Origin: a virus
Length of the DNA: 27,864 nt
IMG/VR virus record: IMGVR_UViG_3300044819_000017
Coordinates: 1-27,864 of that record
Strand: one strand, 5' to 3'
How positions within the stretch are numbered: position 1 is the stretch's first letter; every line of letters starts with the position of its first letter. Positions 10,789 through 27,573 of the stretch are shown piece by piece. Below the pieces are notes generated by a model. That model made no database searches. It worked only from the letters and a program-made list of their open reading frames with translations, and was not told where the DNA came from. The position numbers and the translations under genes are program-made.

Positions 10789-11271
10789 TTACTGTACGGA
10801 GCAGCCGACGGTGCCGGTAACGGTCGGCGTCGAGCTGCCACCCACCGTGATCGATACGCGCCACTTGGCGGCAATGGGGATGCCCGCGCCGACGTTGGCC
10901 GTGGTCGCAACACCGGCACCGGCGGAAATTGCCGAGGCAGTCAAGCCAGTGGTCACCGCCGAGTTGGTGATCAGGTCGTAGTAAAGGCCGCTGACCGCGT
11001 CCTTGTTTTGGATCTTGAAGGTAGTCGACGGCGACCCGGTGAAGGTCGACTGCGCGAACGCGCATACCACCCGGCTCACGTTGAAGCCCACCTGATCCGA
11101 GCTGGTGACCGTGCCCGCACCCTGCGCGGTCATGACCTTCAGCGCGCCGAGGTCCCGCGTTACCGGGCCATAAACGGTGACCGCCTGCGGGACACCTTGG
11201 GCGAATACGACTGCGGGGACTGCGAAAGCCGCTGCAAGCAGCAGGCTGGCGACGCGGCGGGCAAAGTTCAT
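10789..11271 (-). CDS. Exported beta-rich protein with signal peptide, 160 aa
   Basis: I choose the ATG at 11271, preceded by GGAGG at good spacing, rather than a start 72 bases upstream. The protein begins MNFARRVASLLLAAAFAVPA, with a likely cleavage after VVFA. The mature part is beta-rich and small-residue-rich, with GLYYDLITNSAVTTG and AAKWRVSITVGGSSTP, ending in VTGTVGCSVQ. It resembles the 143-aa exported protein at 20064-20495 in its YYDL-x and WRV-x-x patterns. It lies between the minor head and protease genes. A virion decoration protein would not need a signal peptide, so export to the periplasm or surface seems more likely. No family recognised. Confidence 0.75.
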   Translation of the reverse strand: MNFARRVASLLLAAAFAVPAVVFAQGVPQAVTVYGPVTRDLGALKVMTAQGAGTVTSSDQVGFNVSRVVCAFAQSTFTGSPSTTFKIQNKDAVSGLYYDLITNSAVTTGLTASAISAGAGVATTANVGAGIPIAAKWRVSITVGGSSTPTVTGTVGCSVQ

Positions 11272-12545: not shown

Positions 12546-14090
12546 TCACTCCTTGTCGGGCTTGTCCCGTTTCTTGAGCGGGGCTTTTTCCCCGCCAGGT
12601 GCGATGCCCTCTTTGGCCTCGCCTGCCGCTGTGCCGAGCGCCTCGCCGCCCACAGCGCCCATTGCGTTTTCGCCAGCAGGCGGCAGCGACTCCTCGGCAT
12701 CATCGATCTCATCATTGGTAATGCTGCTGAACCGTCCCGTGATGCGGGACAGCTTCTTCAGTTCCTTCATGGCGGTCTGCTGCGAGATCAACCCGGACTC
12801 TTCCGCCGCGCCGATGGTACGTCCATCGCGCTCAGCGATCTCGGACTGCTCCACTTCCGTCAATTGCCACAGCGACCGGAATTCGGTTTTGAATCCGTCC
12901 GGCAATGCGATACCCTCGCTGCGGGCCACAGTACGATAAATGAGGGTTACGCCCGGCCCTAGCTCGGCCTTTTGGTCCTTTTTGACACCGTCATAGTACG
13001 TGCGCAGGTCCGAGTCGCCGGTGCTGTTCAAGCCCGCCGGGGACTGCCCTAGCAGGCGCACAAGGGGTATTTGCAGCGCCCCGGCAATCTGCTGACCGAA
13101 CTGAAGCAGCATGTCGGACAGGCCGCTAAAGGTCGTGTTCTGCATGGCCTCCATTTCATCCTCGCCGTCCAGGAGCGTGATGCCCTCCTGCCCGGCCATG
13201 CGCCGCATCATGTCGACCTGCTTGACGAGGCCTTGGTATGCCTTGCCGCCCTGACCGATGATCTGGCGCAGCCCTTTGATCTTGTACGTGCGCAGCCATG
13301 CCTTATAGACGAGCTGCGCCGCGCCGGTGCTCGTGCTGTCATACGCGATCATCCGGTCATACAGGCGCTCGAGGACGCTGATGCCCCACAGGTTTTCGAG
13401 CAACCGTTGCTGGTACGGCAGGTTGATACCGACAAGCCGGATGCAGCGGCTGTGGTGTATTTTGATGTTTGGCATCGCCGGGCCGCCTGCATTGATGCGG
13501 TAGAACTTCGGCAGCCCCAGGTCCGGCCCCGGTTCGATGACGAGGTTATCCAAGGACGGATCGACCATCCACCGGTCAAGGACAAGCAGCCCCTTGAAGT
13601 CGCCCTTGCCCACCGCCTCCAAGCGGAAGGGCGTCGAGTAGTCGTGCCCGTCGATCATCATGACCGCCAGCGAACCACCATACAGCCGCGACCACTGAAT
13701 CGTTTCCTTGAGGGACTTCCAAATGCGCAGGGTAGTGACAGCCTCCTCAATTTGTTCCGCATGCTCGGGCGTGATCTCGCCTAGCAGGTTGACACCCTCA
13801 CGCGTCATGTCCTCGGCCTTGACGTCGACCGCGATGCCGCCTAGCCAGCTTCCCCGGTGTATCCACTCGAGTAATATCCGAATGCGGCTGATTGGGTTGA
13901 AGCCATAGGTCGATGTCGTCATGGCGTTGTCCGCGCCAATGCCAAGCATCTGCTGGAAATTTACGAACGAGTCCTCAGTCTTTTTGAGGCGCGCTGCGTC
14001 CTGGGCCTTGCGCAGCTTGCGGTCGACGGCGAGCGCGGTGCGGGCTGCGCCTGCGACGCTGACGTTCCGCTTGACGAGAGGCTTGGTCAT
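12546..14090 (-). CDS. Portal protein (DUF1073-like), 514 aa
   Basis: The ATG overlaps the upstream TGA as ATGA. Family patterns are visible: RGSWLGGIAVDVKAEDMTRE at about 80-100, WSRLYGGSLAVMMIDG at about 145, VLDRWMVDP, FYRINAGG, HHSRCIRLVGINLPYQQR, WGISVLERLYDRMIAYD and IPLVRLLGQSPAGLNSTGDS, with TYYDGVKKDQ after it. These are characteristic of DUF1073 portals. The C terminus is acidic with a Gly/Ala-rich, then Lys-rich tail (LKKRDKPDKE). The portal dodecamer is the DNA entry/exit ring of the head and binds terminase. The gene is intact. Confidence 0.92.
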   Translation of the reverse strand: MTKPLVKRNVSVAGAARTALAVDRKLRKAQDAARLKKTEDSFVNFQQMLGIGADNAMTTSTYGFNPISRIRILLEWIHRGSWLGGIAVDVKAEDMTREGVNLLGEITPEHAEQIEEAVTTLRIWKSLKETIQWSRLYGGSLAVMMIDGHDYSTPFRLEAVGKGDFKGLLVLDRWMVDPSLDNLVIEPGPDLGLPKFYRINAGGPAMPNIKIHHSRCIRLVGINLPYQQRLLENLWGISVLERLYDRMIAYDSTSTGAAQLVYKAWLRTYKIKGLRQIIGQGGKAYQGLVKQVDMMRRMAGQEGITLLDGEDEMEAMQNTTFSGLSDMLLQFGQQIAGALQIPLVRLLGQSPAGLNSTGDSDLRTYYDGVKKDQKAELGPGVTLIYRTVARSEGIALPDGFKTEFRSLWQLTEVEQSEIAERDGRTIGAAEESGLISQQTAMKELKKLSRITGRFSSITNDEIDDAEESLPPAGENAMGAVGGEALGTAAGEAKEGIAPGGEKAPLKKRDKPDKE

Positions 14091-14425
14091 TGGCGTGGCA
14101 GCAGGACGACGGACGGCGGCAGCAGCGGGACAAGCTGCGGCATGACAGCGGCCTTTAGCTGCCGGGCGTGCCTGTTATAAGGATTCAGGGCCACAGACCA
14201 TTCGAGTCGTGTGATCACGTCATTAACCTTCGTCGATGTACCGTCGCCGGACATCTTGGAGATCAGAAAATCTGCCGCCACGCTTGCTATCGCGAACCAC
14301 AGTGCTACCGCGAACCAAAGAGCCAGCGCACAGCGCCGCAGCCATAGCCGTGACAGGCATGTGAAGTGGGAAGGCAAGTAGTGCGATGGATAAAATAGTG
14401 ACCAGGACCAGTCCCTCAGTTTCAT
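14087..14425 (-). CDS. Small membrane protein overlapping the Wzy/WaaL-like gene, 112 aa
   Basis: I place the start at 14425 because GGGGAG lies about 8 nt upstream; this makes the gene overlap the upstream Wzy/WaaL-like gene by 203 nt in another frame. A start at the ATG at 14254 (55 aa) would reduce the overlap but lose the transmembrane segment CALALWFAVALWFAIASVAA. After that segment come DGTSTKVNDVITRLEWSVAL and NPYNRHARQLKAAV, which resemble the TPR-like tails found after O-antigen polymerases. It stops inside the portal start. It may work with the Wzy/WaaL-like protein. Reality good, start uncertain. Confidence 0.55.
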   Translation of the reverse strand: MKLRDWSWSLFYPSHYLPSHFTCLSRLWLRRCALALWFAVALWFAIASVAADFLISKMSGDGTSTKVNDVITRLEWSVALNPYNRHARQLKAAVMPQLVPLLPPSVVLLPRQ

Positions 14426-15293
14426 AAAAGCGCTCCCCGTCGTACATTGAACAAAACGAGGCAAGGAGGACGACCGCAGGGATCGCCGCAAGGATGCCCA
14501 GCTCGTAGACGTATTGTACCAATTCCGAGTGCGCGAACTCGGCAAAGGGAAAGTTTATCGGGAAGGAGCCGAGCCCGTTGCCTAATAACTGCATCCCCAT
14601 GATTGCGCTCTGCCAAAAGTCGAGGCGCACCTGTCCGGATGGAAACGTAAGCAGCGCCCAGGTGCCGCCGACCACGACCGCCCACGCGATTGCACCTGCG
14701 GTCTTGGGATATATGCGCCCGAGCCAGAATGCGAACGTGAGGACCAACGCACCGAATACCGCCTTGGACTGACCTACGCCCACGGCAAAGGCGGCAGGTG
14801 CAGCGAGCCACCACATGCGGGTGGATATCATCGCGACAAGGGCCACAGCCCCGGCTTCGGCGAGCAGGTTCTTGTTGATAAACAAGCCTGCCGGTGGGAC
14901 CGCCTGCGGGATGAAGTTCCACCCGACCACCTGCGCAGCAGCGACAGCGGCAGACACAGCAATGCCCGCGCCCAGGCCTACCCATGCAGGTGTCAGGTCT
15001 TCTTCTACGGTGCCAAGCAGGAAGACGCCGAACAGGATTGCGAGGTGGATCAATTCTTCGCCGCCGGTCAGTCTGTCCGGCGTCCAATAGATCGTGACCC
15101 CGGCGGCGGACAGTGCGAGCGCCCCGGCAAGAAATGGCAGCAGGGGTGGCGACCGGTCGAACAGGATGAAATACACCGGCACGGCCAGGGCCATGATCGC
15201 CCACCGTCCGGTGAACTGCGCGTCTAAGCCGCCATAGAAAAAAGCGACCGCGACGAGGAAGGTAAATCCGGACAGGTATGAGGCGCGCATCAT
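14223..15293 (-). CDS. O-antigen ligase/polymerase-like membrane protein (WaaL/Wzy type), 356 aa
   Basis: The start at ATG 15293 shares one base with the stop of the previous gene; a longer frame from 15407 is rejected. The protein is almost entirely hydrophobic, with about ten predicted membrane segments. Near residue 235-290 is the Wzy_C pattern: RLDFWQSAIMGMQLLGNGLG then FAEFAHSELVQYVYELGILA, with the conserved Arg, His, Glu and E-x-G. This large periplasmic loop is typical of O-antigen ligases and polymerases. In a phage such a protein could change the surface polysaccharide of the host and so block superinfection. Its place inside the late operon is unusual. Confidence 0.8.
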   Translation of the reverse strand: MMRASYLSGFTFLVAVAFFYGGLDAQFTGRWAIMALAVPVYFILFDRSPPLLPFLAGALALSAAGVTIYWTPDRLTGGEELIHLAILFGVFLLGTVEEDLTPAWVGLGAGIAVSAAVAAAQVVGWNFIPQAVPPAGLFINKNLLAEAGAVALVAMISTRMWWLAAPAAFAVGVGQSKAVFGALVLTFAFWLGRIYPKTAGAIAWAVVVGGTWALLTFPSGQVRLDFWQSAIMGMQLLGNGLGSFPINFPFAEFAHSELVQYVYELGILAAIPAVVLLASFCSMYDGERFYETEGLVLVTILSIALLAFPLHMPVTAMAAALCAGSLVRGSTVVRDSKRGGRFSDLQDVRRRYIDEG

Positions 15294-17248
15294 CAGTGTT
15301 TCACCGCGCCGACGTCCCGTGGCGCGGGCTCCGCAAGCAAGAAGAAGTCCGACCACACGGGGACTGACGTGCCGCCGCCAATCGCATAGCCACTGGTCGG
15401 TTTCCACCCTGCCGTAGTCGCTGGCGGCGTCGCGGTAAAGTTTGGCGAGGTGCTCTTCATCTGCGCGTCGCTTGAGTTGTTCGTAGCGGAGATGGTAGGT
15501 GAGGCACCCGTGCCGTGGATCATGTTAGGGCTTGTCCCGCTCGGGGAATAAGCGAGGTTGTTCTTCGCCACCACATTCGCCGCCGTATTATTCGTCCCCA
15601 TCCCTGAGTCAGAGGGTGCGAGTTCTATGCCAATCATCGTACCAGCACTACTACTGTAGGCAGAGTTATTGTAGATCGAGACATAGTTCGGATAAGTTTC
15701 CGTCGGCGCGGTAGTGCCCTCAATACCGCGACGCAAGACCGGCATCACATACTGGTCCGCGCCTCCTGAGAGGTTAAACAGGTTGTTCCGGATCGTCGTC
15801 CGCGTCACCCAGGAAATCATTCCGATGGTCGTAGAAGAACTCGCCACAAACCAGTTGCGCTCTACGATGATATCCCGCAGCCGCTCGTCGTGCGCGTTGT
15901 CCTGCGGTCCAAGCGCAACCATCCACTGCTCCGAACCTCCAACAAACTTGTTGTCGCTGATGACACCATTCTGCGTATAAGTTCCCGTGGTCGGCCAGGT
16001 AGGGTTATCCACTGACGCGATGCCAGCATCGAAGTCGCTGGGAGCGTTCCATGCACCCGTCGTATCATAGCTGTAGCTGTGCAGCTTTATCAGGTGCTTC
16101 GTACTAGCCGCCCCAGCGATGGTGTTGTTGGAGAAAACGAACCCGTTCGCGCAGACGGTGCGGAAGGTGTGCTCTCCTCCTCCGTTGTTGTTGAGAGAAT
16201 TCCCCATCACCATGTATTGATTACCAGCACCGAAGATCGAATGGCCCCCCGTGGTGCCGGTCACGTTCGTGGTTGTCGTCTCCACCACGGCGCTACCAGT
16301 ATAGAGGTGGTGCCCCGGATGCCCATTCGCGTTTGCGAAGTCAGGCCCGGCATCGTTGAACTGCATCGCGTTGTGAACATCATGGATGTTCATGCGGAAG
16401 ATCATGAGCTGGTCGAAACTGCCAGGGTTGTTCTGATTCCCCATCACACCCCCATTGCCGGAGTGCCCGTTCCCGGTGAATTCCAGATCCATGATGCGCC
16501 AGTCAGCTAGTGCGGTCTGCGTCCAGACGCCATACTCGATGATGTTCACGTTGTTCGCGCTCGCCTGCACAATGGGCGCAGCACCAGTGTCGTAAGCCCC
16601 GACCAGCCCCGGCCCTGTAACCTGAATATTCGCGGACGTCGATGCCGTGAATGTTTCCCCGCGCCGGAACAGCAGCCGCTTGCCCGCACCCACGTTCGCA
16701 TTGAAGGCGGCATCCCAGTCGGAGGATGTGACGTGCGTTGCTCCGGTCGGGCATCCGGTGAACGTGCCAGAGGTGGAGATACAGACCGTCTTGGTCGTGC
16801 TGAAATAGGTATCAGCATCCGTCACCGTGATCGAAGCCGTTCCGGTGTTCGTGTTCGTCCCGTCGTAAACGGTCAGGGTGACTGTATAAGTCCCTGCGGT
16901 CTCGAAGACGTGCCCAGTGACGGGACCGTAGGCCGCATTCTTGCTTCCTTGACCCGCACCGTTAGTCCACGTTGCCCCACCCGCTGTGTCACCAAAATCC
17001 CAAGAGAACTGTGCATCATGGAACACACCGAGCGTGCTGGTGATCACTGAATCGGTAGTAGCTGTCGCATCGAAATACACCGCGCAGGGTGCAACGCAAG
17101 TATCACCGCCGCCCGTAACCGCCCTTGATGGGGTAAAGGAAACTGTGATCGGATTAGATACCGATATAAGGAAGCCTACAAAGCTCGCTGCCTTGAGCGG
17201 CGGGAAGCAGGTGAGCGCGAGCAGCAACGCAAGAGCTAAACGTCTCAT
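15293..17248 (-). CDS. Exported PKD-domain and beta-helix protein, 651 aa
   Basis: Start at ATG 17248, overlapping the upstream TGA (ATGA). It begins with a signal peptide, MRRLALALLLALTCFPPLKA. Residues about 35-150 look like a PKD domain (DTCVAPCAVYFDATATTDS, FSWDFGDTAGG, GHVFETAGTYTVTLTVYDG). Residues about 200-620 read as a right-handed beta-helix: many short N-rich turns such as NVNIIEYGVWTQ, VISDNKFVGGS, IVERNWFVASS, TTIRNNLFNLSG and VVAKNNLAYSP. No catalytic set is certain. Beta-helices of this kind act on or bind polysaccharides, as tailspikes do, but tailspikes lack signal peptides. It may be secreted or surface-bound. The next gene is Wzy/WaaL-like, so a link to surface glycans is plausible. 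Confidence 0.85.
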   Translation of the reverse strand: MRRLALALLLALTCFPPLKAASFVGFLISVSNPITVSFTPSRAVTGGGDTCVAPCAVYFDATATTDSVITSTLGVFHDAQFSWDFGDTAGGATWTNGAGQGSKNAAYGPVTGHVFETAGTYTVTLTVYDGTNTNTGTASITVTDADTYFSTTKTVCISTSGTFTGCPTGATHVTSSDWDAAFNANVGAGKRLLFRRGETFTASTSANIQVTGPGLVGAYDTGAAPIVQASANNVNIIEYGVWTQTALADWRIMDLEFTGNGHSGNGGVMGNQNNPGSFDQLMIFRMNIHDVHNAMQFNDAGPDFANANGHPGHHLYTGSAVVETTTTNVTGTTGGHSIFGAGNQYMVMGNSLNNNGGGEHTFRTVCANGFVFSNNTIAGAASTKHLIKLHSYSYDTTGAWNAPSDFDAGIASVDNPTWPTTGTYTQNGVISDNKFVGGSEQWMVALGPQDNAHDERLRDIIVERNWFVASSSTTIGMISWVTRTTIRNNLFNLSGGADQYVMPVLRRGIEGTTAPTETYPNYVSIYNNSAYSSSAGTMIGIELAPSDSGMGTNNTAANVVAKNNLAYSPSGTSPNMIHGTGASPTISATNNSSDAQMKSTSPNFTATPPATTAGWKPTSGYAIGGGTSVPVWSDFFLLAEPAPRDVGAVKH

Positions 17249-18009
17249 TGGGCCATCCACGCCACTCCCTGAATCGTATATAGGCCGGATGCTACCGTCA
17301 CGCCGGGATTATAGCTGCCGGAGACTGTGGTGATCTGAGTCTCGACGCCGTCGTTGCTATAAGAAACGTCGGTGATGTTGAGCGTGTACCCGCTCCCCGC
17401 TGTCGGCAAGGCAGCATCCAAATCAAACAGAGACATCACAAGGGAACTGGACGAGGCCGTGGTGATTGCGCCGGGTGAGGGGTTGGCTGCCGTGCCGGTC
17501 GAGCTGGTCGGTGTCCCATCCAGGGCGAAAGTGCCGCTAGTCGTCTTGTATTCGGAGAAGAACGCTACTCCCTTACAGGTCGCGCTCTTCGTTACCGTCG
17601 CGGTTTTGACTACGTTCGCCGTTGCCCCGACTACCTTCCAGAACACGTAGAGCGTACTCGGGATGAGGGCGTTTCTCGTCGGCCCCACAGCCGTATTCCA
17701 CGTCCCACCATCGGTCATCAGGTCGGCAATGGATAGCGTAGCCGTGTTAGAGCCGCAATCTACAGCCACAACAAGTAGACCACCCGCTGTAGGGATGTTT
17801 GTCCACGTTGGCGTAAAAGCCGTGGTAGTCAAAGCGGTCGTCTTGGCCCACGCCTGCTGAATAGAGATGGTTCCGAAGCTGCCGCCGCCTGAGTAGGCTT
17901 TGTTACCCGGCCCCGGCCCCATGCCCTGCCCGGCGAAGCTGCTGGTGCTGACCCCTTGCGCGAACGCGAAGGCGAAGGCGAGTAGGGCTATTAGGATACG
18001 ACGCATCAT
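17245..18009 (-). CDS. Exported protein with signal peptide, 254 aa
   Basis: I choose ATG 18009, overlapping the stop of the 36-aa gene, over the upstream start at 18024. The signal peptide is MMRRILIALLAFAFAFAQGV with a likely cut after SSFA. The mature part is Thr/Ser/Ala-rich and beta-rich: AGGLLVVAVDCGSNTATLSI, VFWKVVGATANVVKTATVTK and LVMSLFDLDAALPTAG. The repeated strands suggest a beta-sandwich. No family is recognised. It is coupled to the PKD/beta-helix gene downstream and to the fibre-like gene upstream, so it probably belongs to the same exported set. Confidence 0.8.
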   Translation of the reverse strand: MMRRILIALLAFAFAFAQGVSTSSFAGQGMGPGPGNKAYSGGGSFGTISIQQAWAKTTALTTTAFTPTWTNIPTAGGLLVVAVDCGSNTATLSIADLMTDGGTWNTAVGPTRNALIPSTLYVFWKVVGATANVVKTATVTKSATCKGVAFFSEYKTTSGTFALDGTPTSSTGTAANPSPGAITTASSSSLVMSLFDLDAALPTAGSGYTLNITDVSYSNDGVETQITTVSGSYNPGVTVASGLYTIQGVAWMAQ

Positions 18010-18116
18010 CGGAAAGCCTTCCATATCAGGTACAGCGTGTACCCGACCGCCAGTACATTCGCCACCACAAGGAAGGCGATGTAGAGGAGATCAGCCTGTT
18101 TGCGTGTCAGCCTCAC
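18006..18116 (-). CDS. Small membrane peptide, 36 aa
   Basis: A GTG at 18116 overlaps the stop of the 649-aa gene as GTGA, and its own TGA overlaps the start of the 254-aa gene as ATGATG. The 36-residue product starts MRLTRKQADLLYIAFLVVAN and continues to LYLIWKAFR: a basic N terminus, one transmembrane helix and a basic tail. The perfect coupling at both ends is strong evidence that it is real. It is too short for most gene finders. Function unknown; one helix with positive ends fits a membrane anchor, an inhibitor or a holin-like peptide. Confidence 0.7.
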   Translation of the reverse strand: MRLTRKQADLLYIAFLVVANVLAVGYTLYLIWKAFR

Positions 18117-20062
18117 CGCACCACGATCCAGTTCAGGGTGAGGGACGTCGGCGTCACCGTCACGGCAAGGTTATTGCAGACCTTGAAGTTCACGTTGTCG
18201 CTGCTCGGGTAGCTGATGATGGTCAGCATACCGGAGGCGCTCGGTGCGTAGCCCGTCACACCGGTCGGGTCACCGTTGAAGCCCCAGTTGACCACATCGG
18301 TTGTCGCCGTGCCTGTCGCAGCGGTCGTGACTACGCTTGCACAAGTGCCGGAGGTAATGGCGCTCGTACCCATCGCGCTCGTGCCCTTGGCAATGATGAT
18401 GCTCGGTGCCCCGGCGCTGCCCGTGTTGACAGCGAGTGCCGTCGCGATACCCGTGCCCGGAGTCGTTGTCGCGAGCGTACTGAACGAGGTGCCGTTCGTC
18501 TTGGTGCAGGTAGTCGCAAGCACCCCGGCAGCCGACAACGTGACCGTCCCGCAGTCACCTGATCCGGATACGGTCTGTGGTGCGGGGTCAGCACCCGTCG
18601 CACCGACCACGAGCTGCCCGTTTGTCAGAGCGGCGATTGCCTTCGGTCCAGAACCAGCCGCGCCCGTCCCAACCACGACCGCGTGATTGGTGAGGGCTGC
18701 GCCGGACTTGACGCTGGTGCCGTCAGTGTACATCGCACCGCCGTCCGTCAAGCTGCCGCTGAGGGCTGCGAAGTTACTCCACGTAGTCGGCGTCGCTGCA
18801 CCACCCCCGGAGGTGAGTACCTGGCCGGCCGTACCCGCCGTCTGCGGGAGGTTGAAGTTATAGGTGCCCGCCGTCGCATTGGGTAGGATGTTGACCGTGC
18901 CGCTCGTCGCCCCCGTCAGGCTCAGGCCACCCGTGGTCGAGGCGGCAACACCGAGCGTCAAGGTGCTGCCGCTGATGTTCATCTGCGCGTTGCCGCTGAC
19001 CGCTGCCGTGCTGCTCGCGTAGTAGGCGAGCTGCCCGCTTGTACCTGAGTTGACCGTGCCCGAGCCGCTGATGGTATTGCAGCCCCAGGCATGGGTGGTC
19101 GTATTGTATGTGAGCGCGTTGCTGCCGCCCGCACAGCCGTTCGTCCCGCTCGTCGGCATGGCGACCGCAGTCGGGGCCGCGCTGCCGCCCGTGGCATTTT
19201 GAACGACGCTGTCTGCCGCCTGTGTCGCCAGCTTGGACAGGGCAATCGACCCGGCAAGGCCCGCATTAGTAACGGTGGCGCAGGTCAGGTTGCCGTTGGC
19301 CGCGATGGTCGTGGCGTAGTTATCCGCCGCGCAGTCCGTAGGGTTGGCAGCCAGGGCGGTCGCCGTCGATGCGTTGCCGGTCAGTGCGGCGGTAATCGTG
19401 CCCGCCGTAAAGTTTCCGCTGCCGTCGCGTGCGACGATTGCACTCAGGGTATTGGCGGACGCGGCTGTGGTATTGCCGTTAGGGATCACCCCCGTACCGC
19501 CCGTCGCATACGGGAAGCCTGTTGCGTTCGTGAGCGTCACGCTGCTCGGGGTGCCGCCTGCACCGTTAAATGTGACCAATGCACCGGCGCTGCCGACATT
19601 GGTGCCAAGGGCCGTGGCTACGCCGGTCCCGAAGCCGGATACGTCGGAGCCTACCGCTACGCTTGCGCAGGTAGCGGCCCCGGACGCATTGAGCGACCGT
19701 GGGAATTGATTGGTACAGCTCGTACCGCCATAGGCTGACAAGCTCGTGCCGTTGCCCAGGGTGAGGCCGGTCACCGTGGTGCTGATGGTAATGGTGGGCG
19801 TAGACGTCGGGTTGGCCACGCTGCCCGCGAAACCGTTGGCGCTCACCACGCTTACCGGGCCAATACTGCCACCACCGCCACCGGAGCAGAACTGCCACGT
19901 CGGGACAAGGATGCCTCCGTTACTTGTCCAGCATTGCCCGACGGTGCCGTAGGTCGTGGGGTACAACGCCGCGTCGAGCGTGTTGTACGTGTCGACCGCC
20001 TGCGCAAGCGGCGCGAACGCAAGAGTGACGGACAGCAGCAGGGTAAGCAGGCGTTTCATCAT
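18113..20062 (-). CDS. Exported fibre-like protein, 649 aa
   Basis: It starts MMKRLLTLLLSVTLAFAPLA, with a signal peptide cut after AQA. The rest is very rich in Ala, Gly, Thr and Ser, in repeats that resemble phage tail-fibre shafts: SIGPVSVVSANGFAGSVANP, TPTITISTTVTGLTLGNGTS, SGTSGQLAYYASSTAAVSGN and GLSLTGATSGTVNILPNATA. There is a Gly stretch near residue 60 and scattered Cys residues, which fit an oxidising compartment. A fibre-like protein with a signal peptide is odd, since virion fibres assemble in the cytoplasm. It could be a secreted adhesin made from a fibre gene. GGGGA lies before the start. Confidence 0.85.
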   Translation of the reverse strand: MMKRLLTLLLSVTLAFAPLAQAVDTYNTLDAALYPTTYGTVGQCWTSNGGILVPTWQFCSGGGGGSIGPVSVVSANGFAGSVANPTSTPTITISTTVTGLTLGNGTSLSAYGGTSCTNQFPRSLNASGAATCASVAVGSDVSGFGTGVATALGTNVGSAGALVTFNGAGGTPSSVTLTNATGFPYATGGTGVIPNGNTTAASANTLSAIVARDGSGNFTAGTITAALTGNASTATALAANPTDCAADNYATTIAANGNLTCATVTNAGLAGSIALSKLATQAADSVVQNATGGSAAPTAVAMPTSGTNGCAGGSNALTYNTTTHAWGCNTISGSGTVNSGTSGQLAYYASSTAAVSGNAQMNISGSTLTLGVAASTTGGLSLTGATSGTVNILPNATAGTYNFNLPQTAGTAGQVLTSGGGAATPTTWSNFAALSGSLTDGGAMYTDGTSVKSGAALTNHAVVVGTGAAGSGPKAIAALTNGQLVVGATGADPAPQTVSGSGDCGTVTLSAAGVLATTCTKTNGTSFSTLATTTPGTGIATALAVNTGSAGAPSIIIAKGTSAMGTSAITSGTCASVVTTAATGTATTDVVNWGFNGDPTGVTGYAPSASGMLTIISYPSSDNVNFKVCNNLAVTVTPTSLTLNWIVVR

Positions 20063-20063
20063 G

Positions 20064-20495
20064 TTAGTTCCCCAGGTAGCCGCTGACGCTGAAGGTCATG
20101 CTCGGTCCGCCTGCCCCGATCATTTGCACCCGCCACGTGCGTGGCAGGAAGTCGGCACTGCTCGCATTGGCAAGGGCGACGGCGCTAGGACAGATTTTCA
20201 GCACCGTGGTGCCGGTGCTCGAGATCGCAGGCCCCACCAGCAGGTCGTAGTAATTGGTGGGCGTAGCCGGGACCGCTGCCTGGAGGTGCGCCGTGTAGTT
20301 CCCGCTCGTATAGCTGCTGACGAATACGACCGCATGCAGGCAGCGCCACGACAGGTTGTTTTGGTCCACGCTGTTTACCGTGGTCGCCGTGCGCGCTGCG
20401 CTGGCAATCGGGATGATCGCGAGGTTGGCGTTCGACTGTGCGAAGGCACCGGCGGCGGTCAGTGCAAGCAGCAGGGCAACGATTAGTTTTTTCAT
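20064..20495 (-). CDS. Exported beta-rich protein with signal peptide, 143 aa
   Basis: AAAGGA precedes the ATG at 20495. The signal peptide is MKKLIVALLLALTAAGAFA, cut before QSN. The mature part has RCLHAVVFVSSYTSGNYTAH, PTNYYDLLVGPAISSTG and PRTWRVQMIGAGGPSMTFSV. The order YYDL...WRV...beta strands is shared with the exported protein at 10789-11271, so the two look like paralogues with one beta-sandwich fold. Two Cys residues in the mature part could pair. It stops one base before the next start. No family known to me. Confidence 0.78.
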   Translation of the reverse strand: MKKLIVALLLALTAAGAFAQSNANLAIIPIASAARTATTVNSVDQNNLSWRCLHAVVFVSSYTSGNYTAHLQAAVPATPTNYYDLLVGPAISSTGTTVLKICPSAVALANASSADFLPRTWRVQMIGAGGPSMTFSVSGYLGN

Positions 20496-20559
20496 GTCGG
20501 TTCCTTTGATGACGCGTAGGCTCGCGGGATTATTGCCCAGGTATGCGCCGGGCAGGGTG

Positions 20560-20817
20560 TCATTTTATGAGCCCACGCCGCAGGGCGAACGCGACCGCCC
20601 CGCAGCGCGTAGCCGCACCCATCCGGTCCATCGCACGGAACAGGTTCACGTGCACGGAGTTCACCGAGCAGCCAATGATGTCGGCTATCTCATTCGTGTG
20701 CTTGCCGTCGGCGAGCCACTTAATGATCTCCAATTGCCGTGGCGTTAGCTCTGCGGTGAACGCAACCCGAACGACCGCCCGCCGCTGTAGCGGAATTACC
20801 CTGCCAGCTTCTCCCAT
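20560..20817 (-). CDS. LuxR-type (GerE) helix-turn-helix protein, 85 aa
   Basis: Starts inside the end of the large terminase gene (22-nt overlap). After a basic N terminus comes a LuxR/GerE helix-turn-helix: LTPRQLEIIKWLADGKHTNE, IADIIGCSVNSVHVNLFRAM. The L-T-x-R-Q-x-E-I-x-x-x-x-A-x-G-x-x-x-x-E-I-A motif is clear. It lacks any sensor or receiver domain, so it is a stand-alone DNA-binding protein. The exported-protein cassette follows directly, so it may control that cassette or host surface genes. No binding site was identified. Confidence 0.82.
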   Translation of the reverse strand: MGEAGRVIPLQRRAVVRVAFTAELTPRQLEIIKWLADGKHTNEIADIIGCSVNSVHVNLFRAMDRMGAATRCGAVAFALRRGLIK

Positions 20818-22148
20818 AGGCCCAATCCCCCACGTGCTTGGATGTACCCGTCAAGGCTGTATCGCAGCCCATCGATGTGGTGGTTCCACTTGTCTACGAT
20901 CACCGGCAGCACTTCACCTGTCATCCGGTCTTTTTTGTAGCTGTACAGCCGCGCCTCCTGAGCCGTCTCCTTGCAGCGCTCGTGGATCACAATCTTGTCG
21001 AAGCCCTTGAGGTGCGCAATGCCGTCCTCGACGCTGCCCTTCCACTTTTCCGCCGCGCTCGCGTTGTAGCCGAAGCCCTTCATGTAGCTGATGGTTTCGG
21101 GGCGGGCATTGTCACATTTGATCGGCCACCCGTTACGCACCTCCGGGATGCTTCCCCAAAACTGGTCCATCTCGGTCAGCTCCACGCCCACGCCGTGCGC
21201 CTCGTAGTCACAATAAAGCGTATTGCCCAGGATGAAGGCACGGTTGAGCGTATTGGGATCGCGGGCAAAGCCAAAGTCCGCGCCGTACAGCAGGCGCTCG
21301 GCCTGCTTCCATAGCTCGTCGCTGAAGCCCTCGACCTTGTACCGCCCGGCCAGGATGATGCTGTCGTTCAGTTTCTTGGCACGTCCCATGTAGACGTGCT
21401 CGTAGGAATCGAAGTCGACCTCTTTCAGGTGCGCAATGCGTGCCGCCGACCGCTTGGACAGATATGGATTTTGGTCGTAGTTCACGATGTGGCTGATCAT
21501 GCCGGGCGGTGGCGTCAGCACACAGTATTTATAGATGGGATCGTCCTCGGCTACGACGTTCCAGCTAAACCACAGCTCGGAGCCTTCCTTGCGAATGGTC
21601 GGGTCAAGGATGTCGAGGCTTTCCTGCGACGTGTTTTGCGCCTCCTCTACCCACGCGATGTCGACACCCTCGAGCGACTTGATCTCGTTGATATTGTGGC
21701 GCAGGCCCTTATATATCGTATAGGCCCCGACGCGGCTGCGAATGCTGTCCCGCGTTACGTCAAACCACGAGGTCAGGCCCAACCGGATGATCGTATCCGT
21801 AAGCAGCCGGTGCACCGAGTCGCTCACGCTGTTTTGGAACTCGCGTGTGCACAGCACCCGAATAGGGCTGTACGTCATGCGGCGGATGATCGCCTCGGCA
21901 AATGCCCAGGACTTTGCAGCGTCCCGACCGCCCCTATAACTCTTGTACGGCGCTGGCTTGAGCAGGTCCTGGAACGGATGCCCCTCTAAGGTGAGCAGGG
22001 AGGAGTGACTTGCGAAGGGCGGAGGCTGTGGCGGTTGCTGCGGCTGTAGCTGCTGCCGCTGCTTGACCCGGCGCGCTCGCTCCACCAAAGCTAACGCCAA
22101 TCGCTGCTTCGGCGGCAGCGCCAGCAATGATCGCGTCAAGTTCTGCAT
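20796..22148 (-). CDS. terL: Terminase large subunit (packaging ATPase/nuclease), 450 aa
   Basis: After a Gln/Pro-rich start, the ATPase begins FQDLLKPAPYKSYRGGRDAA. The Walker A-type loop is GGRDAAKS (about residue 75), Walker B is VDIAWVEEAQ (about 165) and the coupling region SWNVVAEDDPIYKY follows. The nuclease domain has LLYGADFGFARDPNT, IKCDNARPETI and DKWNHHIDGLRY, with the acidic residues expected of an RNase H-like fold. It resembles the PBSX/Terminase_3 type. AAGGGA lies before the ATG at 22148. The N-terminal 72 codons overlap the small terminase gene. It drives DNA into the head and cuts concatemers. Confidence 0.92.
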   Translation of the reverse strand: MQNLTRSLLALPPKQRLALALVERARRVKQRQQLQPQQPPQPPPFASHSSLLTLEGHPFQDLLKPAPYKSYRGGRDAAKSWAFAEAIIRRMTYSPIRVLCTREFQNSVSDSVHRLLTDTIIRLGLTSWFDVTRDSIRSRVGAYTIYKGLRHNINEIKSLEGVDIAWVEEAQNTSQESLDILDPTIRKEGSELWFSWNVVAEDDPIYKYCVLTPPPGMISHIVNYDQNPYLSKRSAARIAHLKEVDFDSYEHVYMGRAKKLNDSIILAGRYKVEGFSDELWKQAERLLYGADFGFARDPNTLNRAFILGNTLYCDYEAHGVGVELTEMDQFWGSIPEVRNGWPIKCDNARPETISYMKGFGYNASAAEKWKGSVEDGIAHLKGFDKIVIHERCKETAQEARLYSYKKDRMTGEVLPVIVDKWNHHIDGLRYSLDGYIQARGGLGLWEKLAG

Positions 22149-24546: not shown

Positions 24547-24930
24547 CTATCGACGCCACTGACGGACCATGAGGTCCTGGTCATTGTGATAAAAATCGAA
24601 GCCAAACTCGCCATACCACTCCCGCAGGAGCTCGGCGCTCATGATCGACCCGCCACCAAATGGCAGCGGACGCAGCACCAAGGTATAGCGCAGCCCGTCG
24701 GCGGTCCTGACTGCTTGGTGCATTAGATCGGTGCCAATCCCCTCGTGGCGGTGCGTGGGCGCGACATGTACGCGGTGCAACAGCGCCCAATTGTGATCGA
24801 TGATTAGTTTACGGGATGCCCGCGTCCGCAGTTCCAGGCGGTACTCCAAAACCAGCGGCAGGCTGCGAATGATGAGCTCTGCTGTCCGATTATGGTCGGG
24901 GCCTTGCCACCACTGTAGATCGAGCCTCAT
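24547..24930 (-). CDS. GNAT-family acetyltransferase, 127 aa
   Basis: The protein has the GNAT motif A LLHRVHVAPTHRHEGIGTDL, with the R-x-x-G-I-G pyrophosphate-binding loop of acetyl-CoA, and the following helix MHQAVRTADG. Motif B-like sequence follows: LREWYGEFGFDFYHNDQDLM, with the typical W-Y-x-x-x-G-F. It is shorter than many GNAT proteins but has the whole core. The substrate is not clear; phage GNATs can modify host proteins or small molecules. It sits between unknown accessory genes. Confidence 0.82.
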   Translation of the reverse strand: MRLDLQWWQGPDHNRTAELIIRSLPLVLEYRLELRTRASRKLIIDHNWALLHRVHVAPTHRHEGIGTDLMHQAVRTADGLRYTLVLRPLPFGGGSIMSAELLREWYGEFGFDFYHNDQDLMVRQWRR

Positions 24931-25575: not shown

Positions 25576-25865
25576 CCGGCACCCCTTTTGAGGAAATCTT
25601 CCATGACCGTATCCCCGCCACGCAACAACCGATCAATCTCGGCAAAGCGGGCCACCTCCCCATCGTCCTCCAGGCGCTCGCTGCCGTGGCATTTTTTGCG
25701 CGGCCCATTGCATGCGTCGCAAGGCTTGGCCCTGGCAAATAAAAAGGACTGTATGACCTCACCGCCAAGCAGACAGGTGGGCGGAACGACTTTGAGCTCT
25801 ATTGCCGCCCGCAGCTTGTCGTCGTCCTGGTCGGCACTAGCCTGCGCGAAGTAGTGCAGTTTCAA
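25572..25865 (-). CDS. Cys-motif protein with TTG start, 97 aa; carries one arm of the inverted repeat
   Basis: The start is TTG at 25865 with GGGAG upstream, and it overlaps the end of the Rad50-like gene by 29 nt. The protein begins MKLHYFAQASADQDDDKLRA. Near the middle is PCDACNGPRKKCHGSERLED, with a C-x-x-C pair and a C-H pair that could form a small zinc site. The segment GPRKKCHGSER is encoded by the 33-nt repeat. The rest is acidic and helical. No family recognised. Confidence 0.68.
   Translation of the reverse strand: MKLHYFAQASADQDDDKLRAAIELKVVPPTCLLGGEVIQSFLFARAKPCDACNGPRKKCHGSERLEDDGEVARFAEIDRLLRGGDTVMEDFLKRGAG
25673..25705 (-). repeat. Inverted repeat arm 2 (33 nt, perfect)
   Basis: Reverse complement of 23334-23366 without a mismatch. 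It lies in the coding part of the 97-aa gene, in the frame for GPRKKCHGSER. Flanking bases differ from those at arm 1, so the repeat is sharply limited. Confidence 0.95.
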
Positions 25866-27573
25866 TCCGACTCCCGCTGTCCGTTTTGACTATGTTGATC
25901 GTTCCCGCAAAGCCACCGAACTCCAATACGCGGTGGTCTGCGAGCAGTATTAATCGATTATACCGTCGCGCCCGGTCGCTCAATACCTCGAGCAGGCCAC
26001 CGACATCATCAAGCCACGTCGACGGCTCGTCCCAAAACTCCACATTCGGCTGCGTGCCCATGCGCGACCCAATCAGGTTCGCAAAGCCCATCGATATCGC
26101 CAGCCGTAGCCGCTGCGACTCGCCGCCCGACCACGCCTCCCAAGGCACGGCACTCTTTACGCCGGGTGCCCGGATAAACGTGGTGAAGTTTTTGTCGATG
26201 GTTCCCTTTTTCGTTTCGCGTTCAATTTCGAACTCGATGGACCAATCCGGCAGTCCTATTTGAAACAGGACCTCATTTACCTCCAGGGTTAGCTGCGCGA
26301 GGCTGCGCTCGATCTCCAGCAGCCTGATCTCTTTGAAGCCCTTAGTCCAAAATTTGCAATCCTCGAGCAGCTTGTGATCGGCGGCGATGGTGGCGCTGAC
26401 CTCGTCAAGCTGCTGCGCCAATGCTTCCCCACGTGCGTCCGCCTGCTCGCGGGCCTTGGTGTACGGGTTGCGCTCGGCACGTATGCTGTTCAGGTTCCCG
26501 GACGCTACAGCAGCGTGCATGTGCGCCTCCGTTACCGCAGCGTGGGCGATCTTTTCATTGGCATCAGCAGCCTCGGCAGCGTCCAATTCCTCCACAGATG
26601 TACGCCCGAGCTTTTCATGAGTGCGCAGGGATGCGGCAAACATCTCACCTAAATAAACTTCCTTTTTACCGGCGGCCTCGAGTTCCTTGCGGACGTGATC
26701 GTCCGACATGGGTGCCCCGCAGGTAGGACACTCCCTGATGTCTTTGTCCTGCAAGGCCCTGACCGTGGCGCGCTGCTCTCGCAGGGATGCTTCGGCCTGC
26801 CGGACAACGTCTGCCGCTGCCACAAGGCGCTCAAGGGCCGGGCGGGGACGGGCTACCTCCTTGGTAGCGGCTGCGAGCGCCTTTTCAGCGGCCAGAACAG
26901 CCGCCTCCGCTACCTTGACGCCCCTCGCCGCTGTAGCGAGCTTGGCCCGGCGCTCGTCGTCCCAGGCGCGTTCCTGCGCGCCGTAGTCCACGGCGAGTAG
27001 CTCCTTGGCTTGGCCCCTTAGTTCCGTCTGCTGCTCGCGCAGCCCGGCTAGGCCCTGTTCCAAGTCGGCGGCATGCCCGTTGCTCATCCCGGCGGCGGCC
27101 TCCCACTTATGCAGCTTGAGGACCTCCGTAAAGACCTTGGTCTGCTGCGGTCGCTCTAGATCAATAAACGACGGCGCAAACTGCGGGAAGTAGACGGCGA
27201 AGGTAAATGCCGCCTGCGGGCATTGCAGCACCTCCACCTCCAATTCCGTCTGGTCGATGGGGTGCGCTTCCTCGTCGGTATAGTGACGGCACTCGAGCAC
27301 ATTGGGGCTGTGCTCGCGCAAAATCGAATCGCCCTTTAGGTTAAGGATGACCGAGCATTTTTCCTTGCCGGTCCACGACTTGACGCTGCCTGCCTTTAGG
27401 CCCCGGCTGGTTTTGCCATATAAGGCCCAATGCACCGCCTCGAACAGACTGCTCTTACCTGACCCGTTGCGCCCGGCGACGTGGTACAGCCCCGGACGCA
27501 GCGCGTCAAAGTCTAGCGTTTGCGGCGAGGCGAAGCTCCGGAAGCCCTGTATGTCGATTGACTTGATGTGCAT
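25837..27573 (-). CDS. Rad50/SbcC-like ATPase, 578 aa
   Basis: The Walker A loop is GRNGSGKSSLFEAVHWAL (about residue 34). A Q-loop-like region has FAVYFPQFAPSF. After a coiled coil (about 165-265) comes a zinc-hook-like ECPTCGAPMS with C-x-x-C, then a second coiled coil. The signature motif is WSGGESQRLRLAISMGFANL and Walker B is VEFWDEPSTWLD, followed by a switch His in LADHRVLEF. These are the marks of SbcC/Rad50 and T4 gp46-like proteins. At 578 aa it is a short phage form. The nuclease partner (gp47/SbcD/Mre11-like) is not in the window and may lie beyond the right edge. It would work in end resection, recombination and replication. Confidence 0.92.
   Translation of the reverse strand: MHIKSIDIQGFRSFASPQTLDFDALRPGLYHVAGRNGSGKSSLFEAVHWALYGKTSRGLKAGSVKSWTGKEKCSVILNLKGDSILREHSPNVLECRHYTDEEAHPIDQTELEVEVLQCPQAAFTFAVYFPQFAPSFIDLERPQQTKVFTEVLKLHKWEAAAGMSNGHAADLEQGLAGLREQQTELRGQAKELLAVDYGAQERAWDDERRAKLATAARGVKVAEAAVLAAEKALAAATKEVARPRPALERLVAAADVVRQAEASLREQRATVRALQDKDIRECPTCGAPMSDDHVRKELEAAGKKEVYLGEMFAASLRTHEKLGRTSVEELDAAEAADANEKIAHAAVTEAHMHAAVASGNLNSIRAERNPYTKAREQADARGEALAQQLDEVSATIAADHKLLEDCKFWTKGFKEIRLLEIERSLAQLTLEVNEVLFQIGLPDWSIEFEIERETKKGTIDKNFTTFIRAPGVKSAVPWEAWSGGESQRLRLAISMGFANLIGSRMGTQPNVEFWDEPSTWLDDVGGLLEVLSDRARRYNRLILLADHRVLEFGGFAGTINIVKTDSGSRIETALLRAG

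Follow-up and report, generated by a model that had tools for sequence, protein, structure and literature searches.

Exported proteins and a WaaL/Wzy-type membrane protein encoded between the terminase and portal genes of an uncultured myophage

What is a phage doing with several exported proteins and a glycan-type membrane enzyme among its late genes? Tailed phages are thought to make their late proteins in the cytoplasm, and what they export is mainly lysis proteins and a few surface-exclusion proteins. In IMG/VR record IMGVR_UViG_3300044819_000017, an incomplete 27,864-bp virus fragment from an uncultured myophage (the window hereafter), the large terminase (TerL) and portal genes, whose identities are backed by Pfam and PHROGs, stand 6.7 kb apart. 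Every open reading frame (ORF) in between is on the minus strand, which also encodes TerL, the portal (PF06381), MuF, a DUF2213-type protease, the major head protein and the tail sheath. The original prediction listed here a LuxR-type protein, four proteins with Sec signal peptides, a 36-aa membrane peptide, an O-antigen-type enzyme and a small membrane protein, and all of these were found as ORFs where it had placed them. We propose, with a probability of roughly 0.4, that the phage expresses this block late, as a module of exported and probably glycosylated proteins that may act at the host surface.

The four proteins p143, p649, p254 and p651 are very probably exported. Their N-termini have a short K/R n-region, a hydrophobic core and a good signal-peptidase site, the classical-looking Sec signals that had been predicted. 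Signal peptides were called by rule and by conservation, without SignalP, and the strict form of the rule misses some likely cases, p143 and p651 among them. The p143 family has five members (window p143, a second window copy, L059 3648-4121, L187 4447 and L032 5270-6040); the mature parts of the four relatives are 23-35% identical to p143, and a Sec signal ends just before Q in 5/5. In L032 (5150-6040) the signal sits in the preceding frame, so a one-base shift within a run of C seems to have disrupted this copy. The second window copy is a fifth exported protein, lying outside the interval in which four had been counted. Cysteine makes up 1.32% of the mature exported proteins vs. 0.65% of other window proteins (Fisher p 0.013), and serine plus threonine (S+T) 25% vs. 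11%. The cysteines of p649 form six spaced pairs (44/59, 116/132, 244/261, 310/328, 504/519, 574/629), a pattern to be expected of a protein that folds with disulfides in the periplasm. In p651 a PKD domain is accompanied by N-rich repeats that form a ladder typical of right-handed beta-helices of the spike or polysaccharide-binding type, with no match to a Pfam beta-helix family. None of the four proteins matches a PHROG, and the analogues tested match no structural PHROG; tblastn of all four against 50,697 phage records, and single-sequence scans of viral contigs with p254 and p651, gave no match.

Ordinary virion proteins with signal-like hydrophobic N-termini, lying near a membrane gene by chance, would account for the fibre-like composition, and hydrophobic N-termini do occur in some phage proteins. 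Such proteins would be cytoplasmic and would lack a Sec signal. What we found instead were paired cysteines, signals of the form K/R-hydrophobic-small-x-small/Q conserved in five diverged members of the p143 family, and recurrence in unrelated phages, and we regard this explanation as very improbable.

The larger membrane protein (wzy) is of the WaaL/Wzy type, with a well supported fold and a putative activity. The window protein alone matches no Pfam family, while 3/4 aligned family members match Wzy_C (PF04932; best 1.2e-11), and hhalign aligned a phage enzyme profile with bacterial Wzy_C-TPR proteins at 99.5% probability over 273 columns. An AlphaFold2 (AF2) model built from six phage sequences (pLDDT 63.8, pTM 0.66) had WaaL (7tpg_B) as its only probability-1.00 Foldseek match (E 0.06, TM 0.51), and VIA-align 2 gave a Z of 15.0 over 296 residues against the same chain, with FtsW/RodA next at 7.5-9. 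Since the model is of medium confidence, the WaaL match is used only alongside the sequence evidence; an earlier model, built on 4 sequences, reached a pLDDT of just 46 and was discarded. A periplasmic His, H254, is invariant in 6/6 phage members, and an Arg equivalent to WaaL R288 (R222) is kept in 5/6. Phage D3 Wzy-beta gave no profile match (hhalign probability 0.2% vs. the single D3 sequence), and E. coli WaaL likewise had none at the profile level. No match came from tblastn of wzy and two wzy relatives against the 50,697 phage records or from a single-sequence scan of viral contigs with wzy; a PDB sequence search gave no useful result and a viral predicted-structure search no credible match. 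The enzyme is of the kind predicted, though homology and context do not point specifically to an O-antigen target.

The small membrane protein (sm) is also present, and is better described as a partner of the enzyme. Bacterial relatives of 645-680 aa have a Wzy_C core followed by an extra transmembrane helix and TPRs; sm has the same transmembrane-TPR make-up (TPR_19 2.3e-6 in the L188 member), and a TPR-type partner is encoded beside the enzyme in 6/6 phage contigs. In the window, L032, L187 and L188, the sm frame, +1 relative to wzy, runs over the last part of wzy with no conserved start, and the two genes also overlap in L211. The L212 copy of sm stands clear of wzy and starts with an ATG of its own. 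This gene makes internal initiation the preferred reading over a programmed +1 frameshift that would join wzy and sm, even though sm is in +1 in the 4 overlaps checked. From these gene arrangements, sm is most likely a genuine partner subunit encoded apart from the enzyme.

Is the association of enzyme and exported proteins peculiar to the window? Profile scans of IMG/VR found six phage contigs with the enzyme and a TPR-type partner. The window, L032 and L187 belong to the same portal lineage, L211 and L212 have a portal of another type, P22-like on the basis of sequence only, and L188 offers a third gene context; on these assignments the six contigs span at least two unrelated lineages. A signal-peptide S/T-rich gene lies directly upstream of the enzyme in the window, L032 and L211, with one gene between in L212, and the L187 contig is cut upstream of the enzyme. 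With a background of 4-12%, the chance of 4/5 such neighbours is roughly 1e-5 to 1e-3, an estimate from few contigs, two of them related and so not fully independent. The gene-order check proposed with the original prediction was therefore borne out in that enzyme and exported protein recur in unrelated phages. A functional link between them is moderately supported, and these blocks suggest that phages make secreted proteins of their own and perhaps coat them with sugars. More broadly, a late Sec-export and two-subunit WaaL-type glycosylation system might be common to several unrelated tailed-phage groups, coating the dying host or decorating virions at lysis, an extension that we offer tentatively and consider somewhat doubtful.

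Exported proteins also occur in relatives of the window. A first, loose signal-peptide scan was unspecific (8.5% on the same strand vs. 7.4% on the opposite strand). With a stricter scan the same strand exceeded the opposite one in the IMG/VR lineage (4.3% vs. 1.4%) but not in GTDB prophages (2.6% on each). By the strict heuristic, signal-peptide-like genes are present in 22/79 IMG/VR relatives, mostly downstream of the portal. In L063 (14213-19957), three large signal-peptide proteins of 636, 396 and 877 aa are encoded in tandem between MuF and the protease, one fibre-like, one beta-rich and one with helix-like repeats. Taken with the 22/79 relatives, this trio makes exported proteins seem a wider habit of the lineage and the enzyme a recurrent addition. 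The L063 protein with helix-like repeats has a TFDD stretch reminiscent of polysaccharide deacetylases, with no Pfam match. Small Cys-bearing signal-peptide beta proteins of an undescribed family or families were also seen downstream of the portal in uncultured phages of the window's portal lineage (Table 1).

One exported protein, L211_192 (L211 5406-5984), is similar to a protein without export signal that a P22-like phage encodes close to its tail genes (L022 16585-17316; E 1e-5), a likeness that suggests exported versions of virion-type domains. It would suit an alternative by which the exported proteins serve the virion as decorations or fibres: they would mature in the periplasm, where they acquire disulfides and glycans, and would be added to virions once the inner membrane gives way at lysis. 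The fibre-like repeats of p649 and the presence of the p143 family in the head gene cluster after MuF fit as well. We know of no precedent for decoration from the periplasm among tailed phages, and consider this alternative improbable.

The bounds of the block follow from an empty site. L028 and L032, close relatives with portals 61% identical to that of the window, have the order TerL-LuxR-portal with hardly any gap, so the 6.4-kb stretch from p143 to sm is an insertion between LuxR and portal. Because both keep LuxR without a cassette at that site, LuxR is a backbone gene, and its predicted membership of the cassette fails. A regulatory role for LuxR in the cassette was dropped on the same ground. 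Of the predicted extent (14087-20817) the block itself is real, and the cassette proper is ~14.09-20.50 kb. In L187 wzy-sm again adjoins the start of the portal gene, and in L032 it comes after MuF and the p143-family gene; judging by these positions, the block, or pieces of it, relocates among late genes.

Within the cassette the genes are closely packed (Table 1). One base separates p143 and p649, p649 and the 36-aa ORF overlap by GTGA, TGATG-type overlaps join the 36-aa ORF to p254 and p651 to wzy, and ATGA overlaps join p254 to p651 and sm to portal, the long wzy/sm overlap being the exception. These junctions make translational coupling likely, and the overlapping or touching genes from p649 to portal that had been predicted are confirmed, with coupling to the late genes likely. 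The 36-aa ORF bridges p649 and p254 through overlaps at both ends; it is present as predicted, but with a GTG start and no homologue found its status as a gene is doubtful, and it may be a coupling peptide, a small membrane protein or no gene.

Table 1. Features of the window, with related small exported proteins of other contigs (a slash marks the signal cleavage site).
Feature	Position	Strand	Support
TerL, left border, outside cassette	20796..22148	-	PF04466 8.6e-32; phrog_3717
LuxR/GerE HTH protein	20560..20817	-	PF00196 1e-12; same place in L028, L032
p143 (143 aa), exported beta-rich, signal AFA/QS, 2 Cys	20064..20495	-	5-member family, Sec signals in all
p649 (649 aa), exported fibre-like, signal AQA/VD, 28% S+T, 12 Cys	18113..20062	-	analogue in L063 14213-16147
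36-aa hydrophobic ORF, GTG start, uncertain gene	18006..18116	-	ORF listing and junctions
p254 (254 aa), exported beta-rich, signal AFA/QG, 2 Cys	17245..18009	-	
p651 (651 aa), exported, signal LKA/AS, PKD domain, N-rich repeats	15293..17248	-	PF00801 7.2e-6
wzy-like, WaaL/Wzy_C-type polytopic membrane protein	14223..15293	-	relatives' Wzy_C matches; model vs. WaaL 7tpg_B
sm, transmembrane and TPR-like partner, start uncertain	14087..14425 (open frame to 14545)	-	real start inside wzy; +1 frame
portal, right border, outside cassette	12546..14090	-	PF06381 1.7e-97
second p143 paralogue, exported, after MuF, signal VFA/QG	10789..11271	-	profile match 3.2e-39
small Cys-bearing signal-peptide beta proteins	L029 8637, L036 11639, L037 6218, L046 8806, L056 17894, L094 13128, L100 12983, L105 7137		

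Upstream of the terminase, the minus strand of the window also has a short ORF judged by eye to be GNAT-like (24547-24930) and an SbcC-like protein (25837-27573; phrog_77).

How might the cassette work? The fibre-like, beta-sandwich and spike-like proteins would leave the cytoplasm by Sec and fold with disulfides in the periplasm, as their sequences strongly indicate. The WaaL-fold enzyme and its separate transmembrane-TPR subunit would work at the periplasmic side of the inner membrane, on a fold that is supported and an activity that we infer, with a lipid-linked host glycan as the presumed donor. The acceptors would most likely be the co-encoded S/T-rich exported proteins, because such enzymes (PglL) often adjoin their substrates. 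More speculatively, the products could shield or take up the surface of the host during late infection and so make further adsorption harder. The evidence is good for export and fold and moderate for the functional link; it supports neither an acceptor nor a purpose. The original prediction of a system that remodels or coats the host envelope, perhaps for superinfection exclusion, adhesion or receptor change, is therefore supported in part: its components are borne out, and the effects it names are conjectural.

Several observations weigh against this account. No glycan donor genes were seen in the contig, and late expression is read from gene order only. At the position of WaaL R215 (R in 3, K in 2 and L in 1 of 6 phage members) the window protein has K, and on our reading of the alignment PglL H400 and E404 are apparently not kept in it. 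The PglL_A motif PF15864 has no match at E<=1 in any of 4 members, and for lack of it we do not file the enzyme as a PglL. In L188 the enzyme has a LamG-like neighbour without a signal, and L063, conversely, has exported proteins with no wzy in its 72.5-kb record; enzyme and exported proteins are therefore separable. Finally, non-fused bacterial relatives with equal scores lie in Wzz-type exopolysaccharide loci.

The TPR-fused bacterial relatives speak for the account: the first four, and later a fifth, all lie in MSHA-type pilus loci beside pilin-type and GspE/PilC-type genes (contexts read by eye from the sequences). They would agree as well with an enzyme pair that glycosylates host type IV/MSHA pilins and blocks pilus-dependent phages, the exported proteins serving another role. 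In the phages, the enzyme pair has exported genes of the phage itself as neighbours and not pilin genes, and the Wzy_C core tree is not resolved at depth and does not place the phage proteins in one clade. We think this alternative quite improbable. Given the mixed contexts and the tree, homology supports a periplasmic glycan transferase and does not fix its acceptor.

The main rival is remodelling of lipopolysaccharide (LPS), in which the WaaL/Wzy-like pair alters host O-antigen or another surface polysaccharide and so blocks further adsorption, with the exported proteins as morons in their own right, of an adhesin or polysaccharide-binding kind. The WaaL fold, the equally scoring relatives in exopolysaccharide-type loci, the precedent of phage D3 and the ligase-like gene beside a signal-peptide gene in phage VarioGold (PMC9658991) all speak for it. 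Against it stand profile comparisons that match neither D3 Wzy-beta nor E. coli WaaL, the repeated pairing of the enzyme with signal-peptide S/T-rich genes, and the late-operon position, given that the D3 and VarioGold genes are on the other strand and those of VarioGold are thought lysogenic (PMC9658991). We judge it rather unlikely.

If the glycosylated-export reading is true, some uncultured phages run a secretory glycoprotein programme, in which late exported, disulfide-rich, fibre-like proteins are made together with the phage's own periplasmic glycan ligase. Such a programme would matter for superinfection exclusion, for virion surface chemistry and for the question of where phage-borne polysaccharide-active proteins come from, and short constructs would suffice to test it.

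As predicted, no described system with this gene set came to light: in the open-licence literature, nothing we found describes a late module between terminase and portal that combines several exported fibre- or spike-like proteins with a WaaL-type enzyme encoded by two genes. Bacterial Wzy_C-TPR proteins from MSHA loci (~650 aa) have the same Wzy_C core followed by a transmembrane segment and TPRs, but as one fused protein with pilin neighbours, where the phages have two genes beside phage exported proteins. WaaL O-antigen ligase (PDB 7TPG) has the predicted fold of the phage enzyme, which is only 10% identical to it, lies outside an LPS locus and has a TPR partner. PglL-type O-oligosaccharyltransferases, also of the Wzy_C family, have pilin genes beside or close to their own in 21/31 cases (PMC3643930), much as the phage gene stands beside exported S/T-bearing substrate candidates; the phage enzyme lacks the PglL_A motif, and its glycosylation activity is putative. 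In Pseudomonas phage D3, serotype conversion by Wzy-beta, Iap and Oac likewise involves a phage-encoded polytopic glycan polymerase, and Wzy-beta may be a functional counterpart, though no homology to the window enzyme was detected; D3 has no exported fibre-like cassette, and its genes lie on the strand opposite the late genes and outside the terminase-portal interval. Of the described cases, Variovorax phage VarioGold comes nearest. Its cluster (VG_p25-p28) consists of morons on the strand opposite the late genes, near lysis and integrase genes, and is proposed to be lysogenic; it has a single signal-peptide hypothetical protein (299 aa) and no reported TPR partner (PMC9658991). There too, an O-antigen ligase-like protein with 10 transmembrane segments, reported to be 31% identical to D3 Wzy, is encoded beside a signal-peptide gene and transmembrane proteins (PMC9658991).

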